From the NCBI RefSeq assembly GCF_013401435.1, contig NZ_JACBGN010000041.1:1-38168 (forward strand): 38,168 nucleotides of DNA, written 5' to 3'. Shown here piece by piece: positions 21,612 to 27,846 of the stretch (its first letter is position 1; the number at the start of each line of letters is the position of its first letter). Source of the stretch: Streptomyces sp. BR123 (GTDB taxonomy: Bacteria; Actinomycetota; Actinomycetes; Streptomycetales; Streptomycetaceae). A program made the translations under genes and the position numbers. Below the pieces are notes generated by a model. That model was not told where the DNA came from. It did no database searches and saw only the letters and a list, made by a program, of their open reading frames with translations.

Positions 21612-22697
21612 ATGTTCGAGGCGGTCGAGGAACTGGTCGGCGAGCACGCCGACCTCGAGAAGAAGCTCGCCGACCCTTCGGTCTTCTCCGATCAGGCCAA
21701 CGCGCGCAAGCTGAACAAGCGCTACGCGGAGCTGACCCCGATCATCGCCACCTACCGGGCGTGGAAGCAGTCGGCGGACGACATCGAGACGGCGAAGGAG
21801 TTCGCCGCGGACGACCCCGACTTCGCAGCCGAGGTCAAGGAGCTCACCGCGCACCGCGAAGAGCTCACCGAGAAGCTGCGCCTGCTGCTCGTCCCGCGCG
21901 ACCCCAGCGACGACAAGGACGTGCTGCTGGAGATCAAGGCGGGCGCGGGCGGCGACGAGTCCGCCCTCTTCGCCGGCGACCTGCTGCGCATGTACCTGCG
22001 CTACGCCGAGCGGGTGGGCTGGAAGACCGAGATCATCGACTCCACCGAGTCCGAGCTCGGCGGCTACAAGGACGTCCAGGTCTCCGTCCGCACCAAGGGC
22101 GGCAACGGCGCCACCGAGCCCGGCCAGGGCGTGTGGGCCCGCCTGAAGTACGAGGGCGGCGTGCACCGCGTCCAGCGCGTGCCGGCCACCGAATCGCAGG
22201 GCCGCATCCACACCTCCGCCGCCGGCGTGCTCGTCACCCCGGAGGCCGAGGAGGTCGAGGTCGAGATCAACCAGAACGACCTGCGCATCGACGTGTACCG
22301 GTCGTCCGGCCCCGGCGGCCAGTCCGTCAACACCACGGACTCCGCCGTCCGCATCACGCACCTGCCCACCGGCGTGGTCGCGTCCTGCCAGAACGAGAAG
22401 AGCCAGCTCCAGAACAAGGAGCAGGCCATGCGCATCCTGCGCTCCCGCCTGCTGGCCGCCGCCCAGGAGGCCGCCGAGCAGGAGGCCGCCGACGCCCGGC
22501 GCAGCCAGGTCCGCACCGTCGACCGGTCCGAGAAGATCCGTACGTACAACTTCCCGGAAAACCGGCTCTCGGACCACCGGACCGGCTTCAAGGCGTACAA
22601 CTTGGACCAGGTGCTCGACGGCGACCTCGACCCGGTCATCCAGTCGTGCGTCGACACGGACTCGGCCGCCAAGCTCGCGGCCGCGACCCCGAACTGA
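21612..22697 (+). CDS. prfA: Peptide chain release factor 1
   Basis: RF1 releases the peptide at UAA and UAG codons. The 361-aa protein has the stop-codon-reading PAT motif at residues 191-193 ([14 protein letters not shown]). The catalytic GGQ at 235-237 ([17 protein letters not shown]) is where the Gln is methylated by PrmC, encoded next. The N-terminal coiled-coil and the C-terminal [32 protein letters not shown] are complete. The ATG at 21612 follows CAGGAGCC. prmC starts 40 bp downstream, so prfA-prmC and probably the following genes form one operon. Confidence 0.98.
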
Positions 22698-22737: not shown

Positions 22738-23583
22738 GTGAACTTGCTGCTTGCCGAGGTGGCCCAGGCCACCCAGCGGCTGGCCGCCGCAGGCGTGCCC
22801 TCACCGCGCTTCGACGCCGAGGAGCTCGCGGCCTTCGTCCACGGCGTCAAACGGGGGGAACTGCACCGCGTCAAGGACGCGGACTTCGACGCCCGCTACT
22901 GGGAGGCCGTCGCCCGCCGCGAGGCGCGCGAGCCGCTCCAGCACATCACCGGCCGCGCCTTCTTCCGGTACCTGGAGCTCCAGGTCGGGCCAGGGGTGTT
23001 CGTCCCCCGGCCCGAGACCGAGTCGGTCGTGGACTGGGCCATACAGGCCGTCCGGGCGATGGACGTCGTCGAGCCGCTGATCGTCGACCTGTGCACCGGG
23101 TCCGGAGCCATCGCCCTCGCCATGGCCCAGGAGGTGCCGCGCTCGCGCGTGCACGCCGTGGAGCTGTCCGACGACGCCCTGCGCTGGGCCCGCAAGAACG
23201 CCGAGGGATCGCGGGTCACCGTCCACCAGGGCGACGCCCTGGAGGCCCTGCCCGAGCTCGACGGACAGGTCGACCTGGTGATCTCCAACCCGCCGTACAT
23301 CCCGCTCACCGAGTGGGAGTACGTCGCCCCCGAGGCCCGCGACCACGACCCGGAGATGGCGCTCTTCTCCGGCGAGGACGGCCTCGACACCATCCGCGGC
23401 ATCGAGCGGACCGCCCACCGGCTGCTGCGGCCCGGCGGGGTCGTCGTCGTCGAGCACGCCGACACCCAGGGCGGCCAGGTTCCGTGGATCTTCGCCGAGG
23501 AACTGGGCTGGGCCGACGCCGCCGACCACCCCGACCTCAACAACCGCCCGCGCTTCGCGACCGCCCGCAAGGCACGCCCGTGA
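22738..23583 (+). CDS. prmC: Release factor glutamine methyltransferase
   Basis: PrmC transfers a methyl group from SAM to the Gln of the release-factor GGQ motif. This 281-aa protein has the N-terminal helical substrate-binding domain (to about residue 85) and a Rossmann methyltransferase with VDLCTGSGAIALA. The catalytic NPPY is at 184-187 (DLVISNPPYIPLTEWEYV). EPLQHITGRAFF and FVPRPETESVVDWA are family signatures. The GTG at 22738 follows CGGAGGACC. It directly follows its substrate gene prfA; 46 bp separate it from the sua5-type gene. Confidence 0.97.
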   Translation: MNLLLAEVAQATQRLAAAGVPSPRFDAEELAAFVHGVKRGELHRVKDADFDARYWEAVARREAREPLQHITGRAFFRYLELQVGPGVFVPRPETESVVDWAIQAVRAMDVVEPLIVDLCTGSGAIALAMAQEVPRSRVHAVELSDDALRWARKNAEGSRVTVHQGDALEALPELDGQVDLVISNPPYIPLTEWEYVAPEARDHDPEMALFSGEDGLDTIRGIERTAHRLLRPGGVVVVEHADTQGGQVPWIFAEELGWADAADHPDLNNRPRFATARKARP

Positions 23584-23629: not shown

Positions 23630-24277
23630 ATGGCCCGGCGATACGACTGCAACGACGCGACGGACCGCGCGACGGGCCTGCGTGAAGCCGCATCCGCCGT
23701 GCGCCGCGGCGAGCTGGTCGTGCTGCCCACCGACACCCTGTACGGGATCGGTGCGGACGCCTTCAGCGCGGAGGCCGTCGGCGACCTGCTCACCGCCAAG
23801 GGGCGGGGCCGCAGCATGCCCACCCCGGTGCTCATCGGCTCCCCGAACACCCTCCACGGCCTGGTGACGGACTTCTCCGAGCAGGCGTGGGAGCTCGTCG
23901 ACGCCTTCTGGCCGGGCGCGCTGACCCTCGTCGCCAAGCACCAGCCCTCGCTGGCCTGGGACCTGGGCGAGACCCGGGGCACGGTGGCCGTGCGCATGCC
24001 GCTGCACCCCGTCGCGATCGAGCTCCTGACCGAGGTCGGCCCGATGGCGGTGTCCTCCGCGAACCTGACCGGCCACCCGGCGCCCGAGGACTGCGACGCG
24101 GCGCGCGCCATGCTCGGCGACTCCGTCTCGGTGTACCTGGACGGCGGCCCCACCCCCGGCATCCAGCCGTCGTCGATCGTCGACGTCACCGGGAAGGTTC
24201 CCGTCCTGCTGCGCGAGGGCGCGCTGACCGCCGAGCAGCTGCGGGAGGTCGTACCCGACCTCGAGGTGTCCCCGTGA
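23630..24277 (+). CDS. L-threonylcarbamoyladenylate synthase (Sua5/YrdC/TsaC family)
   Basis: This enzyme makes threonylcarbamoyl-AMP from threonine, bicarbonate and ATP for the t6A37 modification of ANN-decoding tRNAs. The 215-aa protein is the short YrdC-domain form without the Sua5 C-terminal domain. It shows RRGELVVLPTDTLYGIGADAF, KGRGRSMPTPVLIGS, FWPGALTLVAKH, VAVRMPLHP and MAVSSANLTGHPAP. The lysine-rich KRxxxxP site reads AKGRGRSMP. GAGGAGG lies 7 nt before the ATG. Its stop overlaps the GTG of the next gene (GTGA at 24274-24277), coupling it to the phosphatase-like gene. Confidence 0.95.
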   Translation: MARRYDCNDATDRATGLREAASAVRRGELVVLPTDTLYGIGADAFSAEAVGDLLTAKGRGRSMPTPVLIGSPNTLHGLVTDFSEQAWELVDAFWPGALTLVAKHQPSLAWDLGETRGTVAVRMPLHPVAIELLTEVGPMAVSSANLTGHPAPEDCDAARAMLGDSVSVYLDGGPTPGIQPSSIVDVTGKVPVLLREGALTAEQLREVVPDLEVSP

Positions 24278-24930
24278 GCCCTCAGGGGCGTGGCATAGCC
24301 GAGGGGCAGCTTCCGCCCGCGGACGGCGCGGGCACCTTCCGCATCCTCCACGTCAGCACCGGCAACGTCTGCCGCTCGCCGATCACCGAGCGGCTGACCC
24401 GGCATGCGCTGGCACACCGCCTGGGCGACATCCCGGCCAGCAGCCTGATCGTGGAGAGCGCCGGCACGTGGGGCCACGAGGGCGCCCCGATGGAGGCGAA
24501 CGCAGCCGCCGTACTCGCCGACTTCGGCGCGGACGCCTCCGGGTTCACCGGGCGCGAGCTGCTCGACGAGCACGTCATACGGGCCGACCTCGTCCTGACC
24601 GCCACCCGGGACCACCGGGCGCAGGTCATCTCCATGGGCCACTCGGCGGGCCTGCGCACCTTCACCCTGAAGGAGTTCACCCGCCTGGTGCGGGCCATAG
24701 ACCCGGCGACGCTGCCGCCCCTGGACGACGGCGTCGTCGAACGCGCGCGGGCACTGGTACGGGCCGCGGCGGCCCTGCGCGGCTGGCTCCTGGCCCCCTC
24801 GCAGGACGCGGACGAGGTGCACGACCCCTACGGCGCCCCGATCACCTTCTTCCGCTCGATCGGCGACGAGATCAACCAGGCGCTCGATCCGGTCGTCACG
24901 GCCCTGACGGGTGTCGCGCCCCCGCACTGA
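24274..24930 (+). CDS. Low-molecular-weight protein-tyrosine-phosphatase-like protein, nucleophile Cys replaced by Ser
   Basis: This 218-aa protein has the LMW-PTP/arsenate-reductase fold. The P-loop at residues 26-36 reads HVSTGNVCRSP, where active enzymes have V-C-x-G-N-x-C-R-S-P. Counting back six from the conserved Arg (R34), the nucleophile position is Ser28, not Cys; the second Cys (C33) is kept. The general-acid DP is present (HDPYGAP, D184-P185), and ESAGTWGHEG matches the family SAGT segment. The C-terminus (SIGDEINQALDPVVTAL) is typical of the group. The ~20-residue N-terminal extension is open from the GTG that overlaps the upstream stop. Either it is a pseudo-phosphatase that binds phosphotyrosine or other anions, or it uses other chemistry. 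I recall similar residues in other Streptomyces proteins, but this needs alignment. Confidence 0.85.
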   Translation: MSPQGRGIAEGQLPPADGAGTFRILHVSTGNVCRSPITERLTRHALAHRLGDIPASSLIVESAGTWGHEGAPMEANAAAVLADFGADASGFTGRELLDEHVIRADLVLTATRDHRAQVISMGHSAGLRTFTLKEFTRLVRAIDPATLPPLDDGVVERARALVRAAAALRGWLLAPSQDADEVHDPYGAPITFFRSIGDEINQALDPVVTALTGVAPPH

Positions 24931-25178: not shown

Positions 25179-26408
25179 ATGAGCGTCATCACCCCGCCCC
25201 CGGACCTGCTGCGGCAGCAGGATCCGCAGATGGCCGACGTGCTCGCCGGGGAGGCGCAGCGGCAGGCCACCTCGCTCCAGCTGATCGCCGCCGAGAACTT
25301 CACCTCGCCCGCCGTCCTGGCGGCCCTCGGCTCGGCGCTCGCCAACAAGTACGCCGAGGGCTACCCGGGCAACCGCTACCACGGCGGCTGCGAGTACGCC
25401 GACCTCGCCGAGCGGACCGCCGCGGAACGGGCGCGGGCGCTGTTCGGGGTCGAGCACGCCAACGTGCAGCCGCACTCCGGCTCCGCCGCCGTCCTCGCCG
25501 CGTACGCCGCCCTGCTGCGGCCGGGCGACACCGTGCTGGCGATGGGGCTCGCGTACGGCGGCCACCTCACCCACGGCTCCCCGGCCAATTTCTCCGGCCG
25601 CTGGTTCGATTTCGTCGGCTACGGGGTCGACGCCGAGACGGGCCTGATCGACTACCCCCAGGTGCAGCAGCTGGCGCGGGCGCACCGGCCGAAAGCCATC
25701 GTCTGCGGCTCGATCTCCTACCCGCGGCATCCCGAGTACTCGGTCTTCCGGGAGATCGCCGACGAGGTGGGGGCCTACCTCATCGCGGACGCCGCGCACC
25801 CGATCGGGCTCGTCGCCGGCGGGGCGGCGCCCAGCCCCGTCCCGTACGCCGACGTCGTGTGCGCGACCACCCACAAGGTGCTGCGCGGCCCCCGCGGCGG
25901 GATGATCCTGTGCGGCGCGGAGTTCGCGGAGCGGATCGACCGGGCCGTGTTCCCGTTCACCCAGGGCGGCGCCCAGATGCACACCATCGCCGCCAAGGCC
26001 GTCGCCTTCGGCGAGGCGGCCCGGCCCGCGTTCACCACGTACGCCCACCGGGTGGTGGCCAACGCCCGCGTGCTGGCGGAGGCGCTGACCGGGCACGGCT
26101 TCGCCGTGACGACGGGCGGCACGGACACGCACCTGATCACCGCCGACCCGGCGCCCCTCGGCCTCGACGGCCCCACCGCCCGCGGCCGGCTCGCCGCGGC
26201 GGGGATCGTGCTGGACACCTGTGCCCTGCCGTACGGGGACCAGCGCGGGATCCGCCTGGGCTCGGCGGCCGTGACCACCCAGGGCATGCGGGAGCCGGAG
26301 ATGGAGCGGATCGCCGCGCTCTTCACGGCCGCACTGCAGGGGGAACCGGCGAAAACCCGCGCGGAAGTGGCCGATCTGGCCCACTCCTTTCCCCCTTACG
26401 GTGGGTAA
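25179..26408 (+). CDS. glyA: Serine hydroxymethyltransferase
   Basis: The enzyme interconverts serine and glycine with tetrahydrofolate and PLP. The 409-aa protein has ATSLQLIAAENFTSPAV, NKYAEGYPGNRYHGGCEYAD and ANVQPHSGSAAVLAAYAAL. The PLP-binding Lys is K233 in CATTHKVLRGPRGG; the usual family form is TTTTHKTLRGPRGG. RIGSAAVTTQG near the end reads RLGSAAVTTQG. It is slightly shorter than E. coli GlyA and probably a second paralogue, since this locus lacks other one-carbon genes. The ATG has GGAG 7 nt upstream, directly abutting a 27-bp palindrome that may control it. No terminator is evident before the wecA-type gene, whose likely promoter begins about 70 bp later. Confidence 0.94.
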   Translation: MSVITPPPDLLRQQDPQMADVLAGEAQRQATSLQLIAAENFTSPAVLAALGSALANKYAEGYPGNRYHGGCEYADLAERTAAERARALFGVEHANVQPHSGSAAVLAAYAALLRPGDTVLAMGLAYGGHLTHGSPANFSGRWFDFVGYGVDAETGLIDYPQVQQLARAHRPKAIVCGSISYPRHPEYSVFREIADEVGAYLIADAAHPIGLVAGGAAPSPVPYADVVCATTHKVLRGPRGGMILCGAEFAERIDRAVFPFTQGGAQMHTIAAKAVAFGEAARPAFTTYAHRVVANARVLAEALTGHGFAVTTGGTDTHLITADPAPLGLDGPTARGRLAAAGIVLDTCALPYGDQRGIRLGSAAVTTQGMREPEMERIAALFTAALQGEPAKTRAEVADLAHSFPPYGG

Positions 26409-26484: not shown

Positions 26485-26523
26485 GTGGGGCTGAGATGGC
26501 CGGCGATACATCTGGGGCAGCCC

Positions 26524-27846
26524 GTGCGTGAATACCTGCTGACGCTCTGCGTCACGGTGGCGGTGACCTACCTGCTCACCGGGCCCGTGCGCAGATTCGC
26601 GATCGCGGCCGGCGCGATGCCGGAGATCCGCGCCCGCGACGTGCACCGCGAGCCCACTCCGCGACTCGGCGGCATCGCCATGTTCGGCGGGCTGTGCGCG
26701 GGCCTGCTGGTCGCCGACCACCTGCCCAACCTCAACGGCGTCTTCGAGCTGTCCAACGAGCCGCGGGCCCTGCTGTCGGGGGCCGCGCTGATCTGGCTGA
26801 TCGGCGTCCTGGACGACAAGTTCGAGATCGACGCGCTGATCAAGCTCGGCGCGCAGATGATCGCCGCCGGTGTGATGGTCATGCAGGGCCTGACCGTGCT
26901 GTGGATCCCCGTCCCGTGGATCGGGACGGTCGCGCTCACCCAGTGGCAGGGCAACCTGCTCACGGTGGCCCTGGTGGTCGTCACCATCAACGCGGTGAAC
27001 TTCGTGGACGGCCTCGACGGCCTCGCCGCCGGCATGGTGTGCATCGCCTCCGCGGCGTTCTTCCTCTACGCCTACCGGATCTGGTTCGGCTACGGAATCG
27101 AGGCGGCGGCGCCCGCGACCCTCTTCGCCGCGATCCTGATGGGCATGTGCCTGGGCTTCCTGCCGCACAACATGCATCCCGCACGCATCTTCATGGGCGA
27201 CTCCGGTTCGATGCTCATCGGCCTGGTCCTCGCCGCCGGCGCCATCTCGATCACCGGCCAGGTGGACCCGGACACGATGGCCCTCTTCGCCGGCGGTGAG
27301 CGCAACGCGACGCACGCGATGCTCCCGGTCTTCATCCCGCTGCTGCTGCCGCTGACGATCATCGCGATCCCGATGGCCGACCTGGTCCTGGCCATCGTGC
27401 GGCGCACCTGGAAGGGCCAGTCGCCGTTCGCGGCGGACCGCGGGCACCTGCACCACCGACTGCTGGAACTCGGCCATTCCCACAGCCGCGCTGTCCTGAT
27501 CATGTACTTCTGGTCCGGACTGATCGCGTTCGGCGCGGTGGCCTATTCCGTGCACTCCGCCTCGATGTGGATCGTGCTGGCCATCGCGGCCCTGAGCGCC
27601 GTGGGCCTGGTCCTGCTGCTCCTGCCGCGCTTCAGGCCGCGCACCCCGCGCTGGGCGGAGTTCCTGGTCCCGCCGCGCTACCGGCACGCCGAGCGGGCCG
27701 CCGAGGCGGCCGCGCAGGACGCCTCGGGCCGCGAGCCGGAGTCCGGCCGGCGGGTCGCGGTGGGTGTCTCCGGCGTCAACGGAGCAACCGCCGTGGGCCC
27801 CCGTTCGCGCTTCCCCGACCGGCGTAAGGCCGAAACGACGCGCTGA
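26524..27846 (+). CDS. WecA/MraY-family undecaprenyl-phosphate N-acetylhexosamine-1-phosphate transferase
   Basis: This polytopic membrane enzyme would transfer a UDP-N-acetylhexosamine sugar-1-phosphate to undecaprenyl phosphate, the first step of wall glycopolymer assembly. It has about 10-11 transmembrane helices over 440 aa. Family motifs are REPTPRLGGIAMFGG (about residues 42-56), the acidic GVLDDK (94-99, D97-D98), NAVNFVDGLDGLAAG (156-170), and HPARIFMGDSGSMLIG. The histidine-rich DRGHLHHRLLELGHSHSR corresponds to the conserved HxH loop. The GTG at 26524 is preferred, as the first helix begins at residue 3; a start 13 codons upstream is possible. The C-terminal ~60 residues are a hydrophilic tail. 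It lies upstream of the atp operon but shows its own promoter and a 287-bp gap to atpI. Confidence 0.92.
   Translation: MREYLLTLCVTVAVTYLLTGPVRRFAIAAGAMPEIRARDVHREPTPRLGGIAMFGGLCAGLLVADHLPNLNGVFELSNEPRALLSGAALIWLIGVLDDKFEIDALIKLGAQMIAAGVMVMQGLTVLWIPVPWIGTVALTQWQGNLLTVALVVVTINAVNFVDGLDGLAAGMVCIASAAFFLYAYRIWFGYGIEAAAPATLFAAILMGMCLGFLPHNMHPARIFMGDSGSMLIGLVLAAGAISITGQVDPDTMALFAGGERNATHAMLPVFIPLLLPLTIIAIPMADLVLAIVRRTWKGQSPFAADRGHLHHRLLELGHSHSRAVLIMYFWSGLIAFGAVAYSVHSASMWIVLAIAALSAVGLVLLLLPRFRPRTPRWAEFLVPPRYRHAERAAEAAAQDASGREPESGRRVAVGVSGVNGATAVGPRSRFPDRRKAETTR

Follow-up and report, generated by a model that had tools for sequence, protein, structure and literature searches.

Cys-to-Ser mutants of protein tyrosine phosphatases (PTPs) are generally inactive, and STYX is one of several eukaryotic pseudophosphatases, which belong to other PTP folds than the protein described here. 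To our knowledge, pseudophosphatases are known mainly from eukaryotes. The bacterial system closest to ours is YwlE, an arginine phosphatase in which the Thr that follows the P-loop Asn determines specificity for phosphoarginine. The ywlE gene is linked to ywlC, a sua5 homologue.

PDB entry 4KK4, an engineered YwlE C7S protein, carries a title that names a phosphorylated active-site serine. The PtpA C11S variant of M. tuberculosis is reported to keep an active-site water signal and, in simulation, its structure (PMC5656095), and a Wzb is described as not relying heavily on Cys (PMC2364625). At the ywlE locus, ywlD is reported to adjoin ywlE (PMC10448178). The eukaryotic proteins MK-STYX, PTPRU and HD-PTP likewise belong to the PTP superfamily and are described as catalytically impaired; we liken them to the protein studied here by that description only.

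The window analysed here is a stretch of 38,168 nucleotides from Streptomyces sp. BR123. An earlier note, made from its sequence alone, had drawn attention to a low-molecular-weight PTP (LMW-PTP) homologue, here called ptp, with Ser at the position of the nucleophilic Cys and with a start codon that overlaps a sua5/tsaC gene. We compared this gene with its homologues in the genus, the family and more distant actinomycetes.

The ptp gene and its P-loop

The ptp translation begins at a GTG codon, runs for 218 residues and contains ILHVSTGNVCRSP; the coordinates of the gene, its motifs and its neighbours are given in Table 1. The protein matches the Pfam profile LMWPc (PF01451) at 7.9e-18, with 65.5 bits against a curated cut-off of 23.2. 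The profile of thioredoxin-type ArsC arsenate reductases (TIGR02691) yielded 18 bits, short of its curated cut-off of 174.3. Ser28 lies six residues N-terminal of Arg34, at the aligned nucleophile column, and Asn31, Cys33, Arg34, Ser35 and the acid Asp184 (in HDPYGAP) are all retained. The protein thus has the profile match, the fold, the P-loop Arg and Ser and the Asp acid of an LMW-PTP but lacks the Cys of the CX5R motif. As judged from its sequence, the ptp product would be named an LMW-PTP-fold pseudophosphatase, in that the phosphatase fold is kept, the catalytic residue is replaced across a whole lineage, and the defining feature of LMW-PTP enzymes is absent.

Table 1. Features of the ptp locus, numbered from the first nucleotide of the window.
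Feature	Coordinates	Strand	Basis or remark
prfA-like, conserved neighbour	21612..22697	+	tblastn synteny; start codon assigned here
prmC-like, conserved neighbour	22738..23583	+	tblastn synteny
sua5/tsaC, L-threonylcarbamoyladenylate synthase	23630..24277	+	NCBIfam TIGR00057, 2.8e-55
ptp, LMW-PTP-fold protein of 218 aa with Ser at the nucleophile position	24274..24930	+	translation, Pfam, model
P-loop, residues 28-36, STGNVCRSP	24355..24381	+	sequence
Ser28 codon, AGC	24355-24357	+	sequence
Cys33 and Arg34 of the P-loop	24370..24375	+	invariant in all groups compared
Insert (residues ~139-180) that separates the FTLKEF strand from the DPYG acid loop	24688..24813	+	relative to YwlE-type chains
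General-acid motif, D184-P-Y-G	24823..24834	+	Asp184 conserved in all groups compared
glyA-like, variable neighbour	25179..26408	+	tblastn synteny
wecA/rfe-like, conserved neighbour	26485..27846	+	tblastn synteny

Distribution of the serine

We found Ser28 in all 295 sampled Streptomyces genomes. In 282 of them the codon is AGY, as detected with the pattern V-Ser(AGY)-T-G-N-x-C-R-[ST]-P; the remaining 13 were read one by one, and all have TCC. By contrast, the sister genera have Cys at the nucleophile position in 27/27 loci, drawn from 27 genomes and 16 genera. Column 28 of the alignment divides in the same way, with Ser in 135/135 rows of the Ser clade and Cys in 28/28 sister-genus and 50/50 outgroup rows, and no alternative Cys at the nucleophile column was seen in the alignments. 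The Ser proposed in the earlier note (codon 28, AGC) is therefore real, fixed in Streptomyces and set against Cys in the sister genera. That note had also reasoned that Cys in close homologues would point to a local mutation or a sequencing error. Such Cys homologues do exist, in the sister genera, but the replacement is old and fixed rather than local, and the presence of Ser in 295/295 Streptomyces genomes rules out sequencing error, chance and local mutation alike. Together, these data confirm a genus-wide loss of Cys in a conserved LMW-PTP-fold gene.

A few loci need separate mention. The P-loops of L024, which reads Ser (AGC), and L049, which reads Cys, could not be parsed in the alignment rows, and both were dropped before counting, and L112 and L120 were excluded from the 28-row sister group as broken or partial. 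One ptp copy from a fragmented assembly (L242, genome G1070) matches the window protein over residues 5-168 only and is probably frameshifted or broken.

Wider sampling gave a consistent picture. The best 80 of the 562 named relatives listed comprise 63 with Ser and 17 with Cys. Of these 63 Ser relatives, 62 carry the label Streptomyces and the other is a Kitasatospora aureofaciens; the lone Cys locus labelled Streptomyces (sp. HPF1205) groups with Actinacidiphila in the tree. Every sampled genome of the family (249/249) contains a homologue at E 1e-40 or better. Outside the family we read 40 loci, picked among the stronger matches: 35 have Cys and five have Ser, and all five come from a second actinomycete family, f13. 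There, Ser occurs in the syntenic gene in 5/5 genomes from two genera and is encoded by TCG or TCC. One f13 genome additionally carries a Cys homologue (L069).

Across 296 genomes of the class, scanned with TCN and AGY patterns that both require Asn31 and Cys33 and let other loops escape, the only LMW-PTP genes to show S-x-G-N-x-C-R were those of Streptomyces (28 genomes) and f13 (5). Five further pattern matches, in G209, G188, G107, G193 and G184, were set aside on account of translations unlike those of LMW-PTPs. A phylum-wide scan of 396 genomes with the AGY form, to which TCN codons are invisible, returned 11 matching genomes, all Streptomyces.

Conservation of the pocket and selection on ptp

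The earlier note had suggested that the pocket survives the change of nucleophile, and this was borne out: residues 27-36, N31, C33, R34 and S35 included, are invariant in 135/135 rows of the Ser clade. The invariance of Cys33 and Arg34 extends to 28/28 sister, 5/5 f13 and 50/50 outgroup rows. Asp184 is equally constant, being present in all 134 Ser-clade rows with a residue at that position, in 28/28 sister rows, in 5/5 f13 rows and in 50/50 outgroup rows; the codon alignment has the Asp184 codon in 134/135 Ser-clade rows, and the one that departs is probably the broken copy L242. Asn31 is looser among the 28 sister Cys rows, of which 15 have Asn and 13 Ser. The change of Asn31 to Ser (VCTGS[VI]CRSP; L097, L098, L103, L104, L105, L108 and L113-L119) is a second unusual alteration of the P-loop in this orthologue.

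At the thresholds applied, five residues are diagnostic of the Ser clade relative to the Cys sisters: S28, T38, L58 (93 percent), S124 and S195 (98 percent). Only S28 is shared by f13. Every row of both Ser groups has Val32, but so do 17/28 sister and 6/50 outgroup Cys rows.

We also compared the rate of change of ptp with that of sua5. The ratio of ptp to sua5 tree length is 1.42 in the Ser clade versus 1.82 among the family's Cys members, and the stem leading to the Ser clade measures 0.140 for ptp versus 0.043 for sua5; this ratio and the long ptp stem are consistent with rapid change that then gave way to constraint rather than with decay. For ptp, pairwise dN/dS within the Ser clade has a median of 0.165, against 0.144 for sua5. 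The corresponding values in the Cys group are 0.39 and 0.33, with saturation of synonymous sites suspected. Neither the tree-length ratio to sua5 nor pairwise dN/dS gave any sign of relaxed selection on ptp in the Ser clade, where the gene is under purifying selection.

How often the cysteine was lost

In a protein tree of 101 rows, built with the nucleophile column masked, Cys and Ser interchange twice. Streptomyces contributes 45 Ser rows, which group together (100/97), as do the five f13 rows (100/99); the sister group of Streptomyces consists of four Cys rows of Actinacidiphila type (98/88). The window's own row falls among rows that bear the name Streptomyces. Many outgroup branches of this tree are long, and its bootstrap had not quite converged. 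A constraint that unites all Ser rows in one clade costs 38.3 log-likelihood units (AU p 0.054); a single joint Ser clade is thus disfavoured without being rejected, the AU test being borderline. The replacement in f13 is apparently independent of that in Streptomyces, and the loss of Cys was probably convergent between the two. Horizontal transfer between Streptomyces and f13 is an unlikely source of the Ser, given that identity to the window protein reaches 77 percent for the Cys sister L094 versus 48 percent for L036 of f13, even with the AU value borderline.

The number of events within Streptomyces is less clear-cut. A DNA tree of ptp and sua5, from which L112, L120 and L242 were omitted as broken or partial and in which some inner supports are 63-73, separates a mostly-TCN side from a mostly-AGY side, each of which encloses a single case of the opposite kind. 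If the Streptomyces ancestor had Cys, seven nucleotide steps and three amino-acid changes are needed; if it had Ser, eight and two. Because these parsimony counts disagree, either one loss of Cys with later switching of Ser codons or several losses may have occurred; under either history, no Cys remains in the Streptomyces sample. Switches between Ser codon blocks number three at residue 28, zero to two at five other conserved ptp serines, and zero at six of seven sua5 serines. The seventh sua5 serine switches six times, which weakens codon-block switching as a special sign of selection.

Gene neighbourhood and the link to sua5

Within the window, prfA, prmC, sua5, ptp, glyA and wecA all point in the same direction. 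The names prfA, prmC, wecA/rfe and glyA are presumed assignments, based on the families concerned (and, for glyA, also taken from the earlier note). The GTG start of ptp overlaps the TGA of sua5 as GTGA. Coupling to sua5, proposed earlier from this overlap, is supported by comparison. A syntenic sua5 lies upstream of ptp in 135/135 Ser-clade, 30/30 sister, 5/5 f13 and 21/50 outgroup loci, and where it does, an NTGA overlap is found in 118/135, 26/30, 5/5 and 16/21 of them, respectively.

Among 62 Streptomyces loci with long flanks, 51 have the order prfA-prmC-sua5-ptp-glyA-wecA, eight have the same order without glyA and three are partial; all five f13 loci lack glyA and keep wecA. Cys orthologues from other Streptomycetaceae and actinomycetes show a window-like gene order where it was read, together with the sua5 overlap. 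The prfA-prmC-sua5-ptp core is present at 17 of 43 outgroup loci. The other 26 lack all of these neighbouring genes and are for that reason probably paralogues. The linkage to sua5 is thus older than the loss of Cys.

A possible functional link between ptp and t6A synthesis is suggested by this neighbourhood, in which prfA, prmC and wecA are conserved as well. In B. subtilis, the McsB/YwlE pair is reported to target TsaD, another t6A protein, through phosphoarginine (PMC7546277), and this makes a t6A connection worth considering without showing one. A glyA-like gene lies near ptp in 53/62 long-flank Streptomyces Ser loci and in 0/5 f13 loci.

Predicted structure and comparison with YwlE

An AlphaFold2 model built on a 51-row alignment (pLDDT 92.0, pTM 0.87) predicts that the LMW-PTP fold is intact, with LMW-PTPs as the best PDB matches (Z ~22). 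The solved folds nearest to the model are those of the YwlE arginine phosphatases (Z ~21-22). By sequence, the nearest solved chain is 4EGS from T. tengcongensis (8.3e-16), followed by 4PIC (4.1e-13). The window protein resembles YwlE of Bacillus and Geobacillus (PDB 4KK3, 4ETN, 4PIC) in the CxGNxCRS framework, the DP acid loop and the fold. However, YwlE has a Cys nucleophile and a Thr (CTGNTCRS) where the window protein has S28 and V32, and the window protein carries some 40 extra residues ahead of the acid loop. Its nearest relatives of solved structure are of YwlE type, whereas the Thr after the Asn and the catalytic Cys are both missing from it; because Val32 stands where YwlE has Thr, a simple identity with the arginine phosphatases is argued against.

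Two phmmer alignments to YwlE-like chains break off, one at residue 136 and one at 138, and both continue from 181. In the model, the intervening insert is predicted to form a helix (residues 154-167), and it holds the invariant Arg169. This insert of about 40 residues is shared by Ser and Cys actinomycete homologues and is missing from both aligned YwlE-like chains.

LMW-PTPs of the MPtpA/PtpA type have the same fold (Z 20.9 to 1U2P) but are Cys enzymes, and the Cys orthologues of the Streptomycetaceae sisters, which are 57-77 percent identical to the window protein (11 sister-genus rows aligned), have kept the nucleophilic Cys. The model matches the phosphoserine-titled 4KK4 at Z 21.8; the replacement in that protein was made in the laboratory, whereas the same replacement in the window protein is natural and fixed in the genus.

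Discussion

Our results favour, with reasonable though not high confidence, a reading in which the ptp product would be a pseudophosphatase, natural in origin, that belongs to the YwlE-like branch, binds phosphate and acts as a built-in substrate trap. It would be the orthologue of the actinomycete YwlE-like LMW-PTP from the prfA-prmC-sua5-ptp-wecA neighbourhood, in which Cys would have given way to Ser as Streptomyces arose (either a single time in its ancestor or more than once shortly afterwards) and apparently again in f13. The intact P-loop would bind a phosphorylated ligand, either a phosphoprotein or a small phosphate, and multiple-turnover release would be absent, as in engineered Cys-to-Ser traps. 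The protein may then serve as a reader, a sequestering factor or a regulator, not as a hydrolase. With arginine phosphatases as the nearest relatives of known structure, a ligand of the phosphoarginine type is the first candidate, and the precedents of 4KK4, as titled, and of PtpA C11S, as reported, suggest a bound ligand with incomplete turnover as the simplest mechanism. The protein might stop at binding or proceed to a stable phosphoserine. The latter is kept alive by Asp184, which is invariant although simple phosphate binding needs no general acid, and which leaves room for residual chemistry. Of the three options in the earlier note, a phosphate-binding pseudo-enzyme, a Ser-based phosphatase and the use of Cys33, the first fits best in the light of the 4KK4 title and of the general inactivity of Cys-to-Ser PTP mutants, and the last fares poorly, with Cys33 invariant in all 78 rows that have the nucleophilic Cys.

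That invariant acid also bears on an alternative that we consider unlikely but weigh most seriously among the rivals, namely that Ser28, assisted by Asp184, is a single-turnover phosphoryl acceptor that attacks a high-energy donor, for example phosphoarginine, and is left as a stable phosphoserine, which would make the former phosphatase a phospho-switch. A general acid is required by the first step of such a reaction, and protein phosphoarginine has been reported in the actinobacterium M. smegmatis, in an account that describes both the mycobacterial kinase and the phosphatase as still unidentified (PMC9604228). The active-site serine that the title of 4KK4 describes as phosphorylated also speaks for this reading. 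Against it, Val32 replaces the Thr that is the phosphoarginine determinant of YwlE. Searches of the genome for an arginine kinase, including the McsB type, gave no match but carry no weight either way, as their controls scored in 1/14 genomes and below the cut-off (PF00217) and in 0/14 (NF002194). A more elaborate version, to which we give rather less credence, would make Ser28 in Streptomyces and, convergently, in f13 a receiver fed in one turnover by a phosphoramidate such as protein phosphoarginine, with a stable phosphoserine as reporter of that modification, co-expressed with t6A synthesis.

It is improbable that ptp encodes a slow but true phosphatase with a Ser nucleophile tuned by neighbouring changes. 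Such tuning would be consistent with the invariance of Asp184, Arg34 and Ser35, with the four additional residues by which the Ser clade differs from the Cys sisters (T38, S124, S195 and, mostly, L58) and with the long ptp stem, but f13 has none of those four, 4KK4 is titled as the phosphoserine form, and the general inactivity of Cys-to-Ser PTP mutants argues the other way. Very little weight falls on Cys33 as a replacement nucleophile or redox-active residue. It is invariant in the Ser clade and in f13 even though residue 28, where its disulfide partner would stand, is Ser; nevertheless, it is just as invariant in the 28 sister and 50 outgroup Cys rows, so its conservation is not specific, and it adjoins Arg34 instead of being the first residue of the loop. 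Least likely of all is a non-functional relic drifting since the loss of activity: the nucleophile is indeed gone, but a homologue persists in every sampled genome of the family, the pocket is invariant, and the rate is not relaxed relative to sua5.

Under the favoured reading, a phosphate-binding pseudophosphatase, the ptp product would be a ready-made trap for finding its phospho-ligand, and the sister genera, which differ at the nucleophile, provide a clean natural experiment. More generally, the nucleophile is missing in every sampled Streptomyces genome from a bacterial LMW-PTP-fold gene whose kind is annotated as protein-tyrosine phosphatase, and tyrosine-phosphatase activity should not be assigned from annotation. 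We noticed no paper on the Streptomyces Ser28 protein in the openly licensed PMC literature. The tag SCO5363, presumably that of the S. coelicolor orthologue, did not turn up in that literature, in which three papers mention the neighbouring tags SCO5362 or SCO5364, once each.

The genome that contains the window encodes another LMW-PTP (L003; contig C111, 15296-15553). This protein seems about 60 residues short in the middle, in that its Pfam pieces (model positions 1-40 and 100-143) directly adjoin within one open frame, and the gap may reflect a genuine deletion or a fault in the assembly. Its P-loop, VCTGTICRSP, keeps the Cys.
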